Source: Pseudoalteromonas sp. XMcav2-N (lineage in GTDB: Bacteria; Pseudomonadota; Gammaproteobacteria; Enterobacterales; Alteromonadaceae). From it: a stretch of 64,000 nucleotides of DNA. Each line of letters opens with the position of its first letter. Positions within the stretch are counted from its first letter, which is position 1. The stretch covers positions 1-64,000 of the forward strand of contig NZ_JAMXSF010000010.1 in NCBI RefSeq assembly GCF_024124545.1, given 5' to 3'. Positions 18,780 through 29,484 of this stretch are shown here, one piece after another. Made by a program: the position numbers and the translations under genes. Under the pieces are notes generated by a model. That model was not told the origin of the DNA and searched no databases. It worked only from the letters and a program-made list of their open reading frames with translations.

Positions 18780-19625
18780 TCCAGATCACCTCGTCATCCC
18801 GGCCAGCGAGCCGGGAACCATTCGCCAGTCAATTCAAGTCCTACAGATAATGACGCTGAGTGTCAGATAACGAGATGCAGTGCGCTTTTTACTGAGTAAA
18901 GATTGCCAAACCGAGCCGCCGGTAAGTAGATCCCGCATCAAGTGCGGGATGACAGGGAGTTGTGCGGGATGACCGCGTATAGGGTCATTTCGGTGTTAGA
19001 TTGACCTCCAGTACCAAAGAGTCCCCATGACGAAGTATGAGTTCATTCCGGTGTTAGATTGGCCTCCAGTACCAAAGCGTCCCCAGCTCCTCACCTACCC
19101 TCGTCATCCCGGCCAGCGAGGCGGGAACCATTCGGCAATCAATTCAAGTCCTACAGATAATAACGCTGAGTGTCAGATAACGAGATGCAGTGCGCTTTTT
19201 ACTGAGTAAAGATTGCCAAACCGAGCCGCCGGTAAGTAGATCCCGCATCAAGTGCGGGATGACAGGGAGTTGTGCGGGATGACAGGGAGTTGTGCGGGAT
19301 GACCGCGTATAGGGTCATTTCGGTGTTAGATTGACCTCCAGTACCAAAGCGTCCCCATGACGAAGTATGAGTTCATTCCGGTGTTAGATTGGCCTCCAGT
19401 ACCAAAGCGTCCCCAGCTCCTCACCTACCCTCGTCATCCCGGCCAGCGAGCCGGGAACCATTCGGCAGTCAATTCAAGTCCTACAGATAATAACGCTGAG
19501 TGTCAGAAAACGAGATGCAGCGCGCTTTTTACTGAGTAAAGATTGCCAAACCGAGCCACCGGTAAGTAGATCCCGCATCAAGTGCGGGATGACAGGGAGT
19601 TGTGCGGGATGGCGGTGTTTGGGGC
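18780..19625. repeat. REP-like compound repeat cluster A2 (three units)
   Basis: Left arms begin near 18793, 19103 and 19433. Spacer sequence (including CGAGATGCAGTGCGC and TGAGTAAAGATTGCC) matches cluster A1 some 5 kb away, in the same orientation. Between right arms and next units are 20-bp microrepeats of GGGATGACAGGGAGTTGTGC. The two A clusters bracket the RND operon. Confidence 0.9.
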
Positions 19626-19924: not shown

Positions 19925-20353
19925 ATGTTCGAACAATTTAAGTCATGGGCCACGTCGGCGCACAAATCAGGCACAGACATGTTTACTTCCAGCCTGGTAA
20001 CACTAAGCGATGTACAGATTAAAACCGTTTTTAATCAAGGGGTTCACGATATTGCAAAGTACTCCCGCAACGGCCGCTCGGTCTATATCAAGCATGTTTA
20101 TCTAAACAGGCTAAACGACACGGTAAAGCCAAACATCAGTGCCAGCGATATCGACTTTTTCCGCTCATTAGACCAAATATTTCAATATTGTTATGTGCTG
20201 GTCTATGTTAAATGCCCCCGTTCAAACAAGTATGATACCGCGTTCTTTTTGGATGATTACGAGGCTATCAAAGGGATCAGTAAAAGCGAGGCCATGCAAC
20301 GTCAGACAGATTTAACCTCCATTGCCCGAATCATACGAAGTGAGCTGCTTTAA
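19925..20353 (+). CDS. Hypothetical protein
   Basis: 142 aa, start supported by GAAGGAGCC eight bases upstream of the ATG. No family was recognised. It has no signal peptide or membrane segment. The middle (LDQIFQYCYVLVYVKCPRSN) is strongly beta-like, flanked by helical regions; two Cys are close together there. It sits immediately before the duplicated HTH/membrane cassette but is separated by 386 bp including the palindrome, so a functional link is not established. Confidence 0.6.
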   Translation: MFEQFKSWATSAHKSGTDMFTSSLVTLSDVQIKTVFNQGVHDIAKYSRNGRSVYIKHVYLNRLNDTVKPNISASDIDFFRSLDQIFQYCYVLVYVKCPRSNKYDTAFFLDDYEAIKGISKSEAMQRQTDLTSIARIIRSELL

Positions 20354-20638
20354 ACTGCCTCACTTTGCAGTGTTGAGATTTGCCCATTAAGCTTGATTAA
20401 TTGCTTTGCGTTGGTTGCCAGTTTCTTGGTAATTCCCCCTACAATTACGCACCAAAACAATATCCAATATACAAACTAATTCACCTCAAGCTTACATTGC
20501 GCTAAAATACGCAACGACGCTGTTCCTGAGTGCTTTCTCGTACACCTTTGAACATTTTCCGGCCTAAATGTATAAAAAGTAGAAAACCAAAACGTTTACA
20601 GAGTGAATAATAGCCGTACAAACCTAAAAGCTGAGAAG

Positions 20639-20656
20639 TGATGAATGTTTTCATCA
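20639..20656. promoter_or_regulatory. Palindromic operator candidate upstream of cassette 1
   Basis: TGATGAA (20639-20645), spacer TGTT, TTCATCA (20650-20656): a perfect 7+7 inverted repeat about 85 bp upstream of the HTH start codon. The same half-sites with a 4-bp spacer occur in front of the paralogous cassette at 22104-22121. A TATAAT at 20709-20714 is a possible -10 element. The binding protein is probably one of the HTH proteins (inference). Confidence 0.6.
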
Positions 20657-20739
20657 ATTGCAGGACGCATGGTATTAAACATTGCAGCAACGTTACAATA
20701 AAGTAAAATATAATCAATATACCTCTTACAGGAAATAAT

Positions 20740-21048
20740 ATGAAGAACAGTCCAGGGAAGAGAAAACGGCAAATTGACAAGTTTAAAGTACAAATGCAGC
20801 GATCTATCCGGCAAATGCGCATTGAGGTGGGCTTGAGTCAGAGGGAATTAGCTGCCAAAATGTCCTCAAAAGTTGACCAATCCACTGTGAGTAACTGGGA
20901 AAGTGGAAAAACAGAAATGACCAGTGCCCAATTACTGGACTTATTTCTGATCTTTGGTAAAGATATGGTGGCGATGTACTTCGGCTTCTTGAATAACGCA
21001 GAAAAAGAGTCAGACACCAAAAAAGAACAAGAAGAGAAGGAGTCTTAG
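20740..21048 (+). CDS. XRE-type helix-turn-helix regulator, cassette 1
   Basis: 102 aa cytosolic protein. Residues about 18-75 form a Cro/C1-type HTH: IRQMRIEVGLSQRELAAKM then VDQSTVSNWESGKTEMTSAQ, with the recognition helix around STVSNWESG. A very basic N terminus (KRKRQIDKFK) and an acidic Lys/Glu tail (KKEQEEKES) flank it. It is followed one base after its stop codon by a membrane protein gene. A paralogue at 22269-22574 is near-identical through the HTH. It probably regulates the cassette through the palindrome at 20639-20656. Confidence 0.85.
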   Translation: MKNSPGKRKRQIDKFKVQMQRSIRQMRIEVGLSQRELAAKMSSKVDQSTVSNWESGKTEMTSAQLLDLFLIFGKDMVAMYFGFLNNAEKESDTKKEQEEKES

Positions 21049-21049
21049 G

Positions 21050-21571
21050 ATGGATTTTGGTACTTTTATTACGTATGCCCCACTTCCGATAATCATATTT
21101 GCTTTGTTAGCTACGTGGAAATATGAGTGCTCGCGTTACTTTCTCTTCCTGTTATTAATAGTAGAGCTAATTGACGAAGCGCTGTATAAGACCAGCTTAA
21201 CATGGACTACACACCACTACTTGTATTGCATGATTTTAGATGTCATGTTTGTGGCTCCCATTCTATATCGAAAAGCAACATCTAACTGGCTGTATAATAA
21301 GACAGGTTTGGACTTTTTTAGAAGGGTCTATGAGTCTCATCACTATTCCTTGCAGGAAATTGGTTTACTGTTGATCTTTAGTCTCAACTTCGTGATTAAC
21401 TTCATTGTTTATATAGAGATATGGCTCTATAAGCTTTATGTAATCGACAACCCTTACATTAAGCTTATATTCAGAAACCCCATTCAAATTGGTTTACATT
21501 TGTTTGGTATATGTGCACTACTTACTTACGTTGTAAAAACACCTCTACGGGAGAAACACTATCATGATTAG
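21050..21571 (+). CDS. Five-TM membrane protein of unknown family, cassette 1
   Basis: 173 aa with about five hydrophobic helices (roughly residues 9-22, 29-43, 55-72, 98-124, 148-166). No family was recognised. Comparison with the paralogue at 22576-23130 shows conserved polar/aromatic blocks between helices: TWKYECSRYF, TWTTHxYLYC, YRK, DFFRRVY followed by two His, LQEIGLL and NFIVYIE. Such His/Glu/Asp conservation in membrane helices suggests an enzymatic or sensory role rather than a simple channel. The gene follows the HTH gene with AGAAGGAGTC as ribosome site and overlaps the start of a peptide gene by 8 bp, so HTH, membrane protein and peptide are coupled. Confidence 0.8.
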   Translation: MDFGTFITYAPLPIIIFALLATWKYECSRYFLFLLLIVELIDEALYKTSLTWTTHHYLYCMILDVMFVAPILYRKATSNWLYNKTGLDFFRRVYESHHYSLQEIGLLLIFSLNFVINFIVYIEIWLYKLYVIDNPYIKLIFRNPIQIGLHLFGICALLTYVVKTPLREKHYHD

Positions 21572-21698
21572 AATACCAACAGACTTATTAAGAAAAATTC
21601 ATGCAGGTTTGGGCGGCGGTGGTGGTGGCGGTGGTCCTGGCCTTCCAGACCGTACCGCTGTTTACATACCACCTGTTCCAAAGAATAAATGCGGCTAG
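21564..21698 (+). CDS. Gly-rich small peptide 1
   Basis: 44 aa. The ATG overlaps the stop region of the membrane-protein gene (ATGATTAG), a typical coupling arrangement. The N terminus MIRIPTDLLRKIHAG is amphipathic and leader-like; it is followed by a run of nine residues that are nearly all Gly, then PGLPDRTAVYIPPV and a C-terminal KNKCG. The second peptide (21777-21899) shares the LPDRTAVY-PPV block, the Gly stretch and a single Cys near the end. Possible roles: secreted signalling peptide, bacteriocin-like peptide or modified ribosomal peptide. The function is unknown. Confidence 0.65.
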   Translation: MIRIPTDLLRKIHAGLGGGGGGGGPGLPDRTAVYIPPVPKNKCG

Positions 21699-21776
21699 CC
21701 TCTAAATAGTCTCACGTTTGCTAACTTTTTCATTAGCTACACATATTGAAAAACGCCTTTAAGGATAGATATTATC

Positions 21777-21899
21777 ATGGCTAAAGTTCCAAGAAATTCA
21801 CTTGTAAAAGTTTATGATGGCGGCGGCACCGGTGGTCCAGATCTACCGGATAGGACGGCTGTTTATACGCCACCCGTTTGCAAAAAGAAGCCTGGATAG
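21777..21899 (+). CDS. Gly-rich small peptide 2
   Basis: 40 aa, preceded by AAGGATAG, a plausible ribosome site. Sequence pattern: basic N terminus MAKVPRNSLVKVYD, GGGTGG, then PDLPDRTAVYTPPV and a lysine-rich tail with one Cys (CKKKPG). It is clearly paralogous to peptide 1, although the leader part has diverged while the LPDRTAVY block is retained, so the C-terminal half is probably the functional part. A short hairpin GCTAA-N8-TTAGC (21720-21737) separates the two peptide genes. Confidence 0.65.
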   Translation: MAKVPRNSLVKVYDGGGTGGPDLPDRTAVYTPPVCKKKPG

Positions 21900-22103
21900 C
21901 AACTGGCTCTTTTCTAGAAGCACCGTTGGAATAGTAATACACAAGTGGCTAGCATCACATTAAAGTAATAGTTGCTTTCCTTGCTGTAATTCCTACAGCG
22001 CGTTTTCTATTACATATCTATATCCTCATCTTTTAGAGCTCTTAGCTTTATCGGTTATAATTTTTCTAAATAGCTAAAATTATTGACTATGAGCTCTATT
22101 CGT
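21900..22103. other. Spacer between the two cassettes
   Basis: AT-rich sequence with no ORF of coding character. With the following palindrome and promoter it forms the control region of cassette 2 (21900-22268). Confidence 0.4.
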
Positions 22104-22121
22104 TGATGAATATATTCATCA
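22104..22121. promoter_or_regulatory. Palindromic operator candidate upstream of cassette 2
   Basis: TGATGAA (22104-22110), TATA, TTCATCA (22115-22121): the same perfect half-sites and spacer length as at 20639-20656. It lies about 90 bp upstream of the likely -35 element at 22210. Confidence 0.6.
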
Positions 22122-22209
22122 CATGATTCCTAGCCATAAGACTTCATCCTTCCGCTATAGTTAGCCCCATTAATATATTCATTAAAAGTAGCTAACCCAT
22201 TCTTATTTA

Positions 22210-22237
22210 TTGATACATAGTATCTGTTGTGTAAAAT
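22210..22237 (+). promoter_or_regulatory. Sigma-70-like promoter of cassette 2
   Basis: TTGATA (22210-22215), 16-bp spacer, TAAAAT (22232-22237). The predicted start of transcription is about 25 bp before the HTH start codon. Confidence 0.6.
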
Positions 22238-22268
22238 TCTTCTCCACATAAAACTTGCGGATATAAGA

Positions 22269-22574
22269 ATGACAACAACAACAGGGAAGCGCAAAAAGGA
22301 AATTGATAAGTTCAAGCTGCAGTTACAACGCTCTATTCGACAGATGCGCCAGGAGATGGGGCTCAGTCAGCGAGAGCTCGCCGCCAAAATGACCTCAAAA
22401 GTAGACCAATCCACCGTCAGTAACTGGGAAAGCGGTAAAACCGAAATGACCAGTGCACAGCTACTCGACCTGTTTCTAATTTTTGGTAAGGACATGGTCA
22501 GTATGTATTTTGGCTTTGTTACGAGTAGTGAAGCTAAAGACTCCGATGAAGAGCAAGACGAGGAGGATAAATAG
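22269..22574 (+). CDS. XRE-type helix-turn-helix regulator, cassette 2
   Basis: 101 aa from ATG 22269 (MTTTTGKRKKEIDK), chosen because it aligns with the paralogue's start; an upstream in-frame ATG at 22227 lies inside the promoter region. The HTH (about residues 17-74) differs at only a few positions from cassette 1, including an unchanged VDQSTVSNWESGKTEMTSAQ block, so both proteins should bind the same DNA site. The acidic tail (DSDEEQDEEDK) differs. One base separates its stop from the membrane-protein start. Confidence 0.85.
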   Translation: MTTTTGKRKKEIDKFKLQLQRSIRQMRQEMGLSQRELAAKMTSKVDQSTVSNWESGKTEMTSAQLLDLFLIFGKDMVSMYFGFVTSSEAKDSDEEQDEEDK

Positions 22575-22575
22575 A

Positions 22576-23130
22576 ATGGACATCAGCATATATGACTTCG
22601 TCTATTATCTAACATTTATTGCGATGATAATTGCACTTGTTTCGACCTGGAAATATGAGTGCTCTCGCTACTTTTTACTATTTCTTTTTGGTCTTGAGGC
22701 AATCGATGATGCCATACTCCCTATAACCTTGACCTGGACAACACACTTTTACCTTTATTGCATCGTGTTCGATTTGATATTTTGTATTCCTATCATTTAC
22801 AGAAAACATATCGCGTACTGGATATATCAAAAAACACACTGGGATTTTTTCCGCCGAGTCTATAACAATCACCACCTCGCACTGCAGGAAATAGGACTTC
22901 TGATGTTGTTCGGGGTTGACATAGCAATTAACTTCATTGTTTATATCGAAGTTTGGTTATATAAATGGAAGTTTCTGGATCAGCTCTTCATAAAGAACAA
23001 CATCCGATTAAACGTTGTACTGTTTATAAACTTTTTCACGCTCTGTGCACTCGTCACCTACGCTGCTAAAGCAAGAGCCAGAGAAGAGTTCTATCGTACG
23101 AATAAGGCACCGGAATCGTCGACAATATAA
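22576..23130 (+). CDS. Five-TM membrane protein of unknown family, cassette 2
   Basis: 184 aa starting at ATG 22576. Same topology and conserved blocks as the cassette 1 protein (STWKYECSRYF, TWTTHFYLYC, YRK, DFFRRVYNNHH, LQEIGLL, INFIVYIE), with more divergence in the hydrophobic stretches, which argues that the polar blocks are under selection. The C terminus is longer (ending APESSTI). No peptide gene follows: a repeat begins 13 bp after the stop. Function unknown. Confidence 0.8.
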   Translation: MDISIYDFVYYLTFIAMIIALVSTWKYECSRYFLLFLFGLEAIDDAILPITLTWTTHFYLYCIVFDLIFCIPIIYRKHIAYWIYQKTHWDFFRRVYNNHHLALQEIGLLMLFGVDIAINFIVYIEVWLYKWKFLDQLFIKNNIRLNVVLFINFFTLCALVTYAAKARAREEFYRTNKAPESSTI

Positions 23131-23139
23131 AGATAACTA

Positions 23140-23465
23140 GCCGTCATCCCGGCCAACGAGCCGGGAACCATCCTACATCCAGCTGGAATGCCACATATAG
23201 CTGTATGGATTTTCAGATATCGCTCAAAATTTCTAAACCGCGTCGCCTGTACGTAGATCCCGCATCAAGTGCAGTATGACAAGGAGTCGTGCAGTATGAC
23301 AAGGAGTGGTGCAGTATGACAAGGAGTCGTGCAGTATGACGAGGATTGGTGCAGGATGACGGAGTGTAGAGTTAACGCAGAGTCATTTTATCGCCTGTGC
23401 CAGCGTTCCCCCAGCTCCTCACCTGCTCTCGTCATCCCGGCCAACGAGCCGGGAACCATCAACAA
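23140..23465. repeat. REP-like repeats with 20-bp tandem array (cluster B1)
   Basis: Left arm at 23143, right arm near 23252, then about four to five copies of a 20-bp unit GCAGTATGACAAGGAGTCGT (about 23271-23360), and another left arm near 23431. The array looks like slippage amplification of the right-arm tail. Confidence 0.85.
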
Positions 23466-26942: not shown

Positions 26943-27019
26943 GTTGGACTAGGCCGACACGCAGATTTACAGAAGACTGAAAAGTCACACCACTCCGCCC
27001 CCCACTCGTCATCTAACCT

Positions 27020-27365
27020 AATCTCCTTTCGCCATCCCGGCCAACGAGCCGGGAACCATCCAACGGAGTGAAGAGTTAATGCGAGGTCGTATACTCACCT
27101 GTGTCAAAGGTGCCCCAATTCCACAACTCCTCTCGTCATCCCGGCCAACGAGCCGGGAACCATTCAACGGAGTGAAGAGTTAATATGGTGTCGTTTACTC
27201 ACCAGTGACAAAACTCCCCGGTTCCACACCTCTTCACGTCATCCCGGCCAATGAGCCGGGAACCATTCAAAGTACAACTCGAACCGCACAGATATTCAGA
27301 TATGGCGCTAACTTTGCCAAACCGAGTCGCCGGTAAGTAGATCCCGCATCAAGTGCGGGATGACG
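27020..27365. repeat. REP-like repeats (cluster B2)
   Basis: Left arms near 27033, 27137 and 27238, separated by about 100 bp of shared sequence (CAACGGAGTGAAGAGTTAAT), ending in a right arm near 27341 (GATCCCGCATCAAGTGCGGG). Confidence 0.9.
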
Positions 27366-27490
27366 GAGTGTGAGGTCACTTTATTGACGGAATGTGGGCA
27401 CTTCAATAACGGCAATGAATTAATTTCTACCTTTAAAACAATCACTTATTATCATAGCAAGCTCCAATCCTTAGGTCATCTAAACATAGG

Positions 27491-27775
27491 TCAAAGCGAA
27501 GAATACAAATCTCGCCAATCCAGATTCCTTTTTTCTATTAGCTCAATTTTCCAACGTCGTCGCCAACGTTTAAGCTGCTTTTCTCGTTTAATTGCACTTT
27601 GGATGCTTTGGCTCACTTCATAATAAACAAGGTTTAGTACTTCATACCTAGCGGTAAAACACGATAAATCAATTTTACTCTTGTGCTGCCATACTCGTTG
27701 CTTCAGGTTAGTCGTGACACCTGTATATAAAGTGCCACAGGGAGCCGAAGCCATGATGTATACATATGCTTGCAT
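27491..27775 (-). CDS. GIY-YIG nuclease family protein
   Basis: 94 aa, UPF0213/YhbQ-like size. The N terminus YVYIMASAPCGTLYTGVT is a GIY-YIG variant (VYI...YTG), with the conserved Arg in LKQRVWQHK and the metal-binding Glu region in KREKQLKRWRR. Single-domain proteins of this kind cleave or nick DNA in vitro in some cases, but cellular roles are poorly defined. An AAGGA-type site precedes the ATG. The gene lies inside a field of REP-like repeats (B2 on one side, B3 on the other), with no other gene between, suggesting an association with repeat maintenance or spread. Confidence 0.85.
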   Translation of the reverse strand: MQAYVYIMASAPCGTLYTGVTTNLKQRVWQHKSKIDLSCFTARYEVLNLVYYEVSQSIQSAIKREKQLKRWRRRWKIELIEKRNLDWRDLYSSL

Positions 27776-27854
27776 CAGGATATCCTTTCCTTCTTTTCGT
27801 ATAAAAATTTTAGCCTACAATCTCATCCTCTGTTTCGTATTGTCATAAAAACTA

Positions 27855-29275
27855 ACTCAGTCATCTCGGCCAACGAGCCGACTCGAGCCACACAGATATT
27901 CAGATATGGCGCTAACTTTGCCAAACCGAGTCGCCGGCAAGTAGATCCCGCATCAAGTGCGGGATGACGTAGTGTGGTGTCAATACGGTCGTTTGATCAC
28001 TTGTGTCAAAGGTGCCCCAATTCCACAATTCCTCTCGTCATCCCGGCCAACGAGCCGGGAACCATCCAACGGAGTGAAGAGTTAATATAGTGTCGTGTAC
28101 TCACCAGAGACAAAGATCCCCAATTCCACAATTCCTCTCGTCATCCCGGCCAGCGAGCCGGGAACCATCCAACGGAGTGAAGAGTTAATATGGTGTCGTG
28201 TACTCACCAGTGACAAAGAATCCCAGGTTCCACACCTCTTCTCGTCATCCCGGCCAACGAGCCGGGAACCATTCAAAGTACAACTCGAACCGCACAGATA
28301 TTCAGATATGGCTCAAGATTGCCAACCACATTGTCGGTAGGTAGATCCCGCATCAAGTGCGGGATGACGGAGTGTGGTGACAATACAGTCGTTTGATCAC
28401 CAGAGACAAAGATCCCCAATTCCACAACTCCTCTCGTCATCCCGGCCAACGAGCCGGGAACCATCCAACGGAGTGAAGAGTTAATATGGTGTCGTGTACT
28501 CACCAGTGACAAAGAATCCCCGGTTCCACACCTCTTCTCGTCATCCCGGCCAACGAGCCGGGAACCATCCAACGGAGTGAAGAGTTAATATGGTGTCGTG
28601 TACTCACCAGTGACAAAGAATCCCCAATTCCACAACTCTTCTCGTCATCCCGGTCAACGAGCCGGGAACCATTCAAAGTACAACTCGAACCGCACAGATA
28701 TTCAGATATGGCTCAAGATTGCCAACCACATTGTCGGTAGGTAGATCCCGCATCAGTGCGGGATGACGGAGTGTGGTGTAAATACGGTCGTTTGATCACC
28801 AGAGACAAAGATCCCCAATTCCTCTCGTCATCCCGGCCAGCGAGCCGGGAACCATCCAACGGAGTGAAGAGTTAATATGGTGTCGTGTACTCACCAGTGA
28901 CAAAGAATCCCCGGTTCCACACCTCCTCTCGTCATCCCGGCCAACGAGCCGGGAACCATCCAACGGAGTGAAGAGTTAATATGGTGTCGTGTACTCACCA
29001 GAGACAAAGATCCCCAATTCCACACCTCTTCTCGTCATCCCGGCCAACGAGCCGGGAACCATTCAACGGAGTGAAGAGTTAATATGGTGTCGCTTACTCA
29101 CCAGTGACAAAACTCCCCAATTCCACACCTCCTCTCGTCATCCCGGCCAACGAGCCGGGAACCATTCAAAGTACAACTCGAGCCGCACAGATTTTCAGAT
29201 ATGGCTCTAACTTTGCCAAACCGAGTCGCCGGCAAGTAGATCCCGCATCAAGTGCGGGATGACGGAGTGTGGTGT
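27855..29275. repeat. REP-like repeat field (cluster B3)
   Basis: About ten left arms (for example near 28041, 28143, 28246, 28440, 28545, 28645, 28830, 28936, 29037, 29139) spaced by about 100 bp, with right arms near 27945, 28344, 28745 and 29240. Linkers repeat ACGGAGTGAAGAGTTAATAT and TCACCAGTGACAAAGA. All short reading frames here are repeat-derived. Confidence 0.9.
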
Positions 29276-29484
29276 AAATACGGTCGTTTGATCACCAGTG
29301 CCAAAGAACAACCCCCGGTTCCACACAGCCTGATAGCCGCTTCCCTATCAAATCCGGAAAAAGAGATATTTAAAAAACAATCGCTGGCTATATTCGAAGG
29401 GCTGAACAGCCCAGCACTTGGATTTGGTGAAAAACATGCCGGCCAATACCTGTCGGAGTTTACTGAACATGCTCTCTGTTCAGT

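Follow-up and report, generated by a model that had tools for sequence, protein, structure and literature searches.

Matched variation of a membrane protein and double-glycine-type peptides in XRE regulator cassettes of Pseudoalteromonas suggests a peptide-based recognition system

The first 64,000 nucleotides of contig NZ_JAMXSF010000010.1 of Pseudoalteromonas sp. XMcav2-N (assembly GCF_024124545.1), the whole stretch analysed and referred to below as the window, contain two tandem cassettes at positions 20639-23130. Each consists of a gene for a helix-turn-helix (HTH) regulator and a gene for a membrane protein with five transmembrane (TM) spans; small peptide genes follow the first copy only. 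The question raised by this locus is what the membrane protein and the peptides do together. At the level of sequence, the two change as a matched unit between otherwise near-identical chromosomal sites, and this points to a peptide-based recognition system, very probably composed of an exported peptide and a specificity-matched membrane partner.

All genes of the cassettes lie on the forward strand. HTH1 (20740..21048), an XRE-type regulator of 102 aa (Pfam HTH_3, E 2.2e-10), is separated by a single base from TM1 (21050..21571), a protein of 173 aa from an undescribed family, whose five spans were read from hydropathy and charge. The start region of peptide 1 (21564..21698, 44 aa, with a 15-aa leader ending in AG by the position rule) overlaps the TM1 stop by 8 nt, and peptide 2 (21777..21899, 40 aa) has a leader ending in DG or GG. 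In the second cassette, HTH2 (22269..22574) counts 101 aa from the ATG at 22269, within a longer open reading frame (ORF) of 22227-22574 that matches HTH_3 at E 1.3e-10, and is again followed after one base by TM2 (22576..23130, 184 aa), a TM1 paralogue (50% identity) without a peptide downstream. The ORF coordinates bear out the tandem arrangement reported in the initial annotation, as well as the continuation of copy 1 into two paralogous peptides (60% identity), and the conserved polar blocks it quoted are present in TM1 and TM2. Its description of the two HTH proteins as near-identical is strongly worded, as they are 77% identical (DNA repeat of 77% over 235 nt).

The window site was compared with the corresponding sites in genomes G253, G244 and G245 (G, L and C numbers designate genomes, loci and contigs). 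Neighbouring genes with a counterpart there share 87-99% identity (81-88% for one shorter gene) and HTH1 is 99-100% identical, while TM1 shares 56%, 52% and 51% with the syntenic proteins of G253, G244 and G245. The same profile is seen in the DNA, with identities of 98-100% over HTH1, 44-74% over TM1, 13-53% over the peptide region and 94-99% over HTH2. TM2, taken as the longer ORF, is 96% identical to its counterpart in G253 and 67-68% to those in G244 and G245; the DNA identity over TM2 stays at 92-98% in G253 and is 58-81% in G244 and G245, against 87-96% beyond the gene. Upstream of HTH1, identity with G244 and G245 falls to 61-90% in the non-coding DNA at 20325-20625 as well. The more distant genome G201 has a TM1 that is 90% identical and a similar peptide 1 (75%), and no second cassette.

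This pattern extends to 76 syntenic cassette pairs from different genomes. TM identity was 34-70% in 59 pairs (different alleles) and 77-99% in 17 (same allele), with an HTH identity mostly of 85-100%. Peptide identity tracked TM identity (rho 0.72, 71 of the 76 pairs, 0 of 1000 label permutations) and did not track HTH identity (rho 0.02). Identity of the upstream DNA, computed for the 58 pairs whose alignment there spans 500 nt or more, correlated with HTH DNA (rho 0.47) and not with TM (rho -0.02). DNA identity was profiled along seven further pairs, of which six differ in allele and one does not: three showed high identity on both flanks and low identity over the TM-peptide block, and the pairs from the C41 and C5 sites failed to align far downstream, the same-allele pair included. 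Co-inheritance of peptide and membrane protein beside a conserved HTH gene would be the expected outcome of diversifying or balancing selection on a matched pair, and the co-variation resembles the polymorphism of pheromone-receptor or bacteriocin-immunity pairs. The initial annotation had proposed peptide maturation or sensing, or immunity; nothing was found in favour of maturation, and the co-segregation of alleles points to sensing or immunity without deciding between them. The joint swapping of alleles and the double-glycine (GG) leader described below go beyond that annotation.

The order HTH-TM-peptide is not peculiar to the window, and it recurs beyond what chance would give. In the fetched loci, 97 ORFs match the TM model (overlapping loci included), and HTH and TM genes mostly lie a few bases apart. 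Of the TM family, 89 distinct ORFs lie outside the window; for 56 of them, corresponding to 41 of 53 close and 15 of 36 divergent members, a first regular expression found a GG-leader-type peptide at most 800 nt downstream. On both strands it matched 78 times in the 73.7 kb behind TM genes versus 14 times in the other 626.8 kb, a density about 47-fold lower elsewhere in the same loci. With a looser expression, 57 of 70 HTH+TM cassettes had a GG-type peptide within 800 nt, with at least two missed (L022 and L078, each of which has a peptide by eye) and with L072, whose TM gene is split between two ORFs, counted twice here and in the syntenic pairs; L012, L015, L016 and L037 were omitted as repeats of L048, L049, L051 and L074. 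Of these 57 cassettes, 31 have a peptide gene that begins before the end of the TM gene, overlapping its stop. Both expressions were composed after the peptides had been seen, though they target published leader positions. The neighbourhood survey called for by the initial annotation thus found the gene order in many genomes. Departures from it also occur: some TM genes have neither HTH gene nor peptide (e.g. L007), TM genes stand in rows in some genomes (e.g. L066-L068), and several different peptides follow one TM gene in L026 and L035. At L182:3226-3829 in G201, HTH gene and peptide are intact and the TM gene is reduced to its two ends.

The peptides themselves point to export. C39 proteases are described in PMC6363468 as recognising Leu-12, Leu-7, Val/Leu/Ile-4 and a Gly-Gly, Gly-Ala or Gly-Ser end. 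Most of the 35 seed peptides begin with about 15 residues of the type M-K-x-L-x4-L-x2-[IV]-x-G-G, and the cassette peptides fit the double-glycine leader pattern of C39-exporter substrates. Without preselection, 37 of 70 ATG-initiated ORFs of 24-110 aa starting between -35 and +45 of a TM stop matched the GG expression, belonging to 33 of 91 TM genes, versus 0 of 165 control ORFs (ATG, 24-110 aa) inside TM genes. Among 76 distinct peptides the leader has a median length of 15 aa and the core of 26.5 aa (12-72). The cores are hydrophilic (median grand average of hydropathy -0.83, maximum -0.14), with a median net charge of +1 (range -4 to +6), and rich in Pro and Gly; P-x-[LIVP]-P-x-[RK] occurs in 35 of the 76, and [SATGRN]P-x-[LIVP]-P in 48, where shuffled cores average 4.6.

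A peptide profile gave four clear hits in the XMcav2-N genome, all directly behind TM genes (peptide 1 at E 2.1e-16 and peptide 2 at 2.4e-16, both being part of the profile). It matched 29 of 108 Pseudoalteromonas genomes, all 29 of which are among the 33 positive for the TM family; the TM-positive genomes without a hit are G231, G278, G281 and G292. At least two hits in the genus have no full TM neighbour, the one with the gutted TM gene at L182 and a peptide remnant at L183 with neither HTH nor TM gene. Behind cassette copy 2 of the window, and behind the orthologous copies of G253, G244 and G245, the looser expression found no GG-type peptide.

A candidate exporter is encoded elsewhere in the genome. 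A Peptidase_C39 domain scoring at least 100 bits was present in 33 of 33 TM-positive versus 32 of 75 TM-negative genomes of the genus (tallied by hand; Fisher p 8e-10 with shared ancestry not removed); at the Pfam cut-off it was found in 81 of 108, that is in 48 of the 75 TM-negative ones. It is also present in G020, a genome from another genus with an intact cassette. XMcav2-N has two C39 loci. In the first (L116:3557-11530, contig C5, beside glmU), Pfam identified genes for a C39 ATP-binding cassette (ABC) protein, HlyD, a LanC-like and a LanB-like protein; the second (L117, contig C24) has a C39 exporter and a HlyD-like gene. Since these genes lie outside the cassettes, export would be in trans.

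Some further features of these exporter loci were noted. At L117:92-605, beside the C39 gene, stand four tandem, near-identical small ORFs of 36-37 aa and GG type, from a different GG peptide family. The LanB-like/LanC-like/C39/HlyD set next to glmU was recognised by eye in L118 and L120-L125, and the locus is also found in the TM-negative genomes G018 and G275, with no evident adjoining precursor; it looks like lanthipeptide machinery acting in trans. Small ORFs at L118:11298-11453 and L122:11176-11328, with a long leader ending in AGG and cores containing Ser or Cys, are possible substrates of the linked LanB/LanC. At L119:1834-8433 (G232) the glmU-linked C39/HlyD pair lacks LanB and LanC and adjoins genes that by eye resemble a response regulator and possibly a sensor.

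The membrane protein matches no family in the databases searched, in line with the initial annotation, which recognised none. TM1, TM2 and the peptides had no Pfam or NCBIfam match at E 1 or better, TM1 and TM2 had none in PADLOC or PHROGs at 0.01, and the TM-family profile had none among PDB sequences; the TM proteins contained neither a kinase domain nor any other domain accepted by Pfam, one of 41 scanned members touching the model PAP2_3 (E 0.0045). A match to a known family, or absence of the gene order from other genomes, had been named as grounds for abandoning the initial proposal; neither was observed. AlphaFold2, given the window and named sequences (22), modelled TM1 as helical (predicted local distance difference test 91.5, predicted template modelling score 0.83). 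Hydropathy and charge were read as five spans with the N-terminus outside and the C-terminus inside. Positions L19, W23, R29, Y57, F67, R74, A78, E103, E123 and Y127 are kept in at least 90% of the family, the charged or polar R74, E123, E103, R29 and Y57 in at least 96%. In the 59 pairs with different alleles, segment 22-29 is the best conserved (71% versus 35-59% elsewhere), and by our topology reading it forms an inner loop.

XMcav2-N has five TM copies found by protein search and a sixth, divergent copy found by profile. The profile matches 33 of 108 Pseudoalteromonas genomes, with up to nine matches per genome, partial ones included; 22 loci are in named relatives (P. rubra, P. luteoviolacea, P. 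aurantia, P. amylolytica and Pseudoalteromonas sp.). At the family level (196 genomes) two others match, G020 with an intact locus (L009) and G173 with four stop codons (L010, left out of later analyses). Samples of 394 genomes at the order level (profile A1) and 369 at the class level (profile A4) gave no match beyond XMcav2-N itself. A stop codon lies inside the TM match of L077. The orphan TM gene of L007:4996-6441 (XMcav2-N contig C21) is followed by the gene of a DUF4231 protein (PF14015, E 5.5e-10) with a weak match to a PADLOC '2TM effector' (E 0.0097).

Each regulator gene in the window is preceded by a palindrome, TGATGAATGTTTTCATCA at 20639..20656 and TGATGAATATATTCATCA at 22104..22121, which are probably the operators of cassettes 1 and 2. 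The exact sequence TGATGAANNNNTTCATCA occurs at two sites only in the 5.7-Mb genome, upstream of HTH1 and of HTH2. The cassette-1 palindrome is kept at equal distance in the G253, G244 and G245 orthologs; the palindrome scan did not find that of cassette 2 in the copy-2 orthologs, nor any palindrome in many of 69 upstream regions, and the sequence varies from site to site. Four sites with one mismatch in the XMcav2-N genome made no convincing regulon, and with up to two mismatches there were 80 places per strand versus 15 for a backwards control, from which nothing is concluded.

Around the cassettes, at 19539-19621 and 23142-23460, lie repeats of a CGTCATCCCGGCCAACGAGCCGGGAACCATC type together with tandem 20-nt units, and more were seen by eye at about 18900-19500 and 27000-29300. 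They are possibly rearrangement sites.

How, then, might the parts work together? Gene order, leader pattern, exporter genes and the co-segregation of TM and peptide beside a conserved HTH gene are read directly from the sequences; the scheme built on them is put forward tentatively. A cassette would produce an XRE regulator, an inner-membrane five-TM protein and mostly one or more GG-leader peptides, which a C39-peptidase ABC exporter with HlyD, encoded elsewhere, would cut after the leader and export. The mature peptide would bind its cognate five-TM protein, acting as a receptor, which would relay its state to the XRE regulator of the same operon, so that a matched peptide would switch its own cassette in a pherotype-like manner. 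In the agr, com and blp pherotype systems, peptide and membrane partner vary jointly as allele classes, a likeness to the TM-peptide correlation given above. The cassettes differ from them in a partner without kinase domain, an HTH_3 protein inside the cassette and a Gram-negative host; in place of the histidine-kinase receptor and response regulator of agr and com, the cassette regulator is an HTH_3 protein.

Nearly as likely is that the GG peptides are antibacterial and exported by C39/HlyD, that the five-TM protein gives immunity and that the XRE protein acts as repressor of the operon; the swapping of alleles would then reflect an arms race among producers. In PMC9746304, the immunity proteins listed for class II microcins are 51-216 aa long and typically located in the inner membrane, and microcins can have an exporter in common; the cassette parts match these. 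As in class II microcins and other GG-leader bacteriocins, there is a GG-type leader (family-wide, the window peptides ending in AG and DG/GG), a C39 exporter with HlyD in the genome, a small adjacent membrane protein, and a variable core and partner. By size, position, membrane nature and co-variation the TM protein would suit a putative immunity protein. The overlap of peptide start and TM stop in the 31 cassettes also counts for immunity, because the TM gene is then read first, as do TM genes that stand alone or in tandem and have no peptide, and the joint variation of TM and peptide alleles. Differences from class II microcins are the exporter outside the cassette (in XMcav2-N too), the XRE regulator, the leader of about 15 aa, the short hydrophilic core with recurrent P-x-[LIVP]-P, and the presence of several cassettes per genome in many positives.

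The receptor is nevertheless preferred over immunity because the cores are hydrophilic, with a median net charge of +1, because the HTH and TM genes sit close together like the genes of the regulator-inhibitor operons discussed below, and because one G201 cassette keeps its HTH gene and peptide despite a gutted TM gene, a state hard to square with an immunity function unless a further copy gives protection. A TM gene that precedes several different peptides also speaks against immunity, and the conserved segment 22-29 was counted for a receptor.

A number of observations weigh on the other side. G201 does have other TM copies that could protect; peptide-less HTH-TM cassettes such as copy 2, and the TM rows of L066-L068, resemble spare immunity genes; TM2 fails to track the peptide-1 allele, G000 and G253 having TM2 and not TM1 in common; and no signalling domain was found. 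The exporter genes lie outside the cassette, and TM-negative genomes have them as well. The window peptides depart from a strict GG (AG; DG or GG), and peptide 1 fails the strict expression. As for the co-variation, the syntenic pairs are not mutually independent, and exceptions exist among them: L029/L032 (peptides 79%, TM 48%), L027/L029 (TM 97%, peptides 67%) and L062/L065 (TM 61%, best peptide pair 89%). Finally, the peptide profile was built from TM-adjacent peptides, which favours co-occurrence with TM.

Less probable by some distance is a five-TM protein that serves as a dedicated helper in processing, modification or export of the adjacent peptides. The overlap and co-variation of the TM gene with the peptide gene would suit such a helper, as would the residues conserved at 96% or more. 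More doubtful still is a regulator with a membrane inhibitor in the manner of the LytTR Regulatory Systems (LRS), the peptide being intracellular or incidental. In the LRS, according to PMC6193735, a soluble regulator and a TM protein that inhibits it form an operon, and two such systems control bacteriocin genes. The cassettes share this two-gene order, regulator first and TM gene directly downstream, and palindromes precede the HTH genes at several sites; but their regulator is of the HTH_3/XRE and not the LytTR family, the repeat is inverted and not direct, and there is an additional peptide whose GG leader, with the C39 genes, points to export and whose alleles go with the TM alleles.

Four other readings were rejected: a type II toxin-antitoxin pair, as the TM protein has no known toxin family and the HTH matches of HipB/MqsA type fall below curated cut-offs; a LanB/LanC substrate, as only 10 of the 76 cores contain Cys although a LanB-LanC-C39-HlyD locus exists; phage defence, with no PADLOC hit for either window TM protein and weak hits for HTH1 (best E 5.9e-06); and a lasso peptide, with no conserved ring acid by eye.

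A literature search found no description of this gene combination, judged from titles and abstract openings of part of the matches. Should the bacteriocin-immunity reading be true, one marine genus would offer 76 distinct candidate peptides, most with a matched membrane gene, and either reading would link an undescribed membrane family and an undescribed peptide family to a known type of exporter. Should signalling be true, the cassettes would be a peptide-receptor system of a kind for which the literature search gave no description in Gram-negatives, and the natural allele series would make its specificity directly testable. More speculatively, the cassettes may form a multi-cassette communication system of Gram-negative bacteria, with an exported GG peptide, a kinase-free five-TM receptor and a one-component XRE regulator, in which matched alleles, recombined between species at sites with a conserved HTH gene, could give Pseudoalteromonas a combinatorial kin or pherotype identity.

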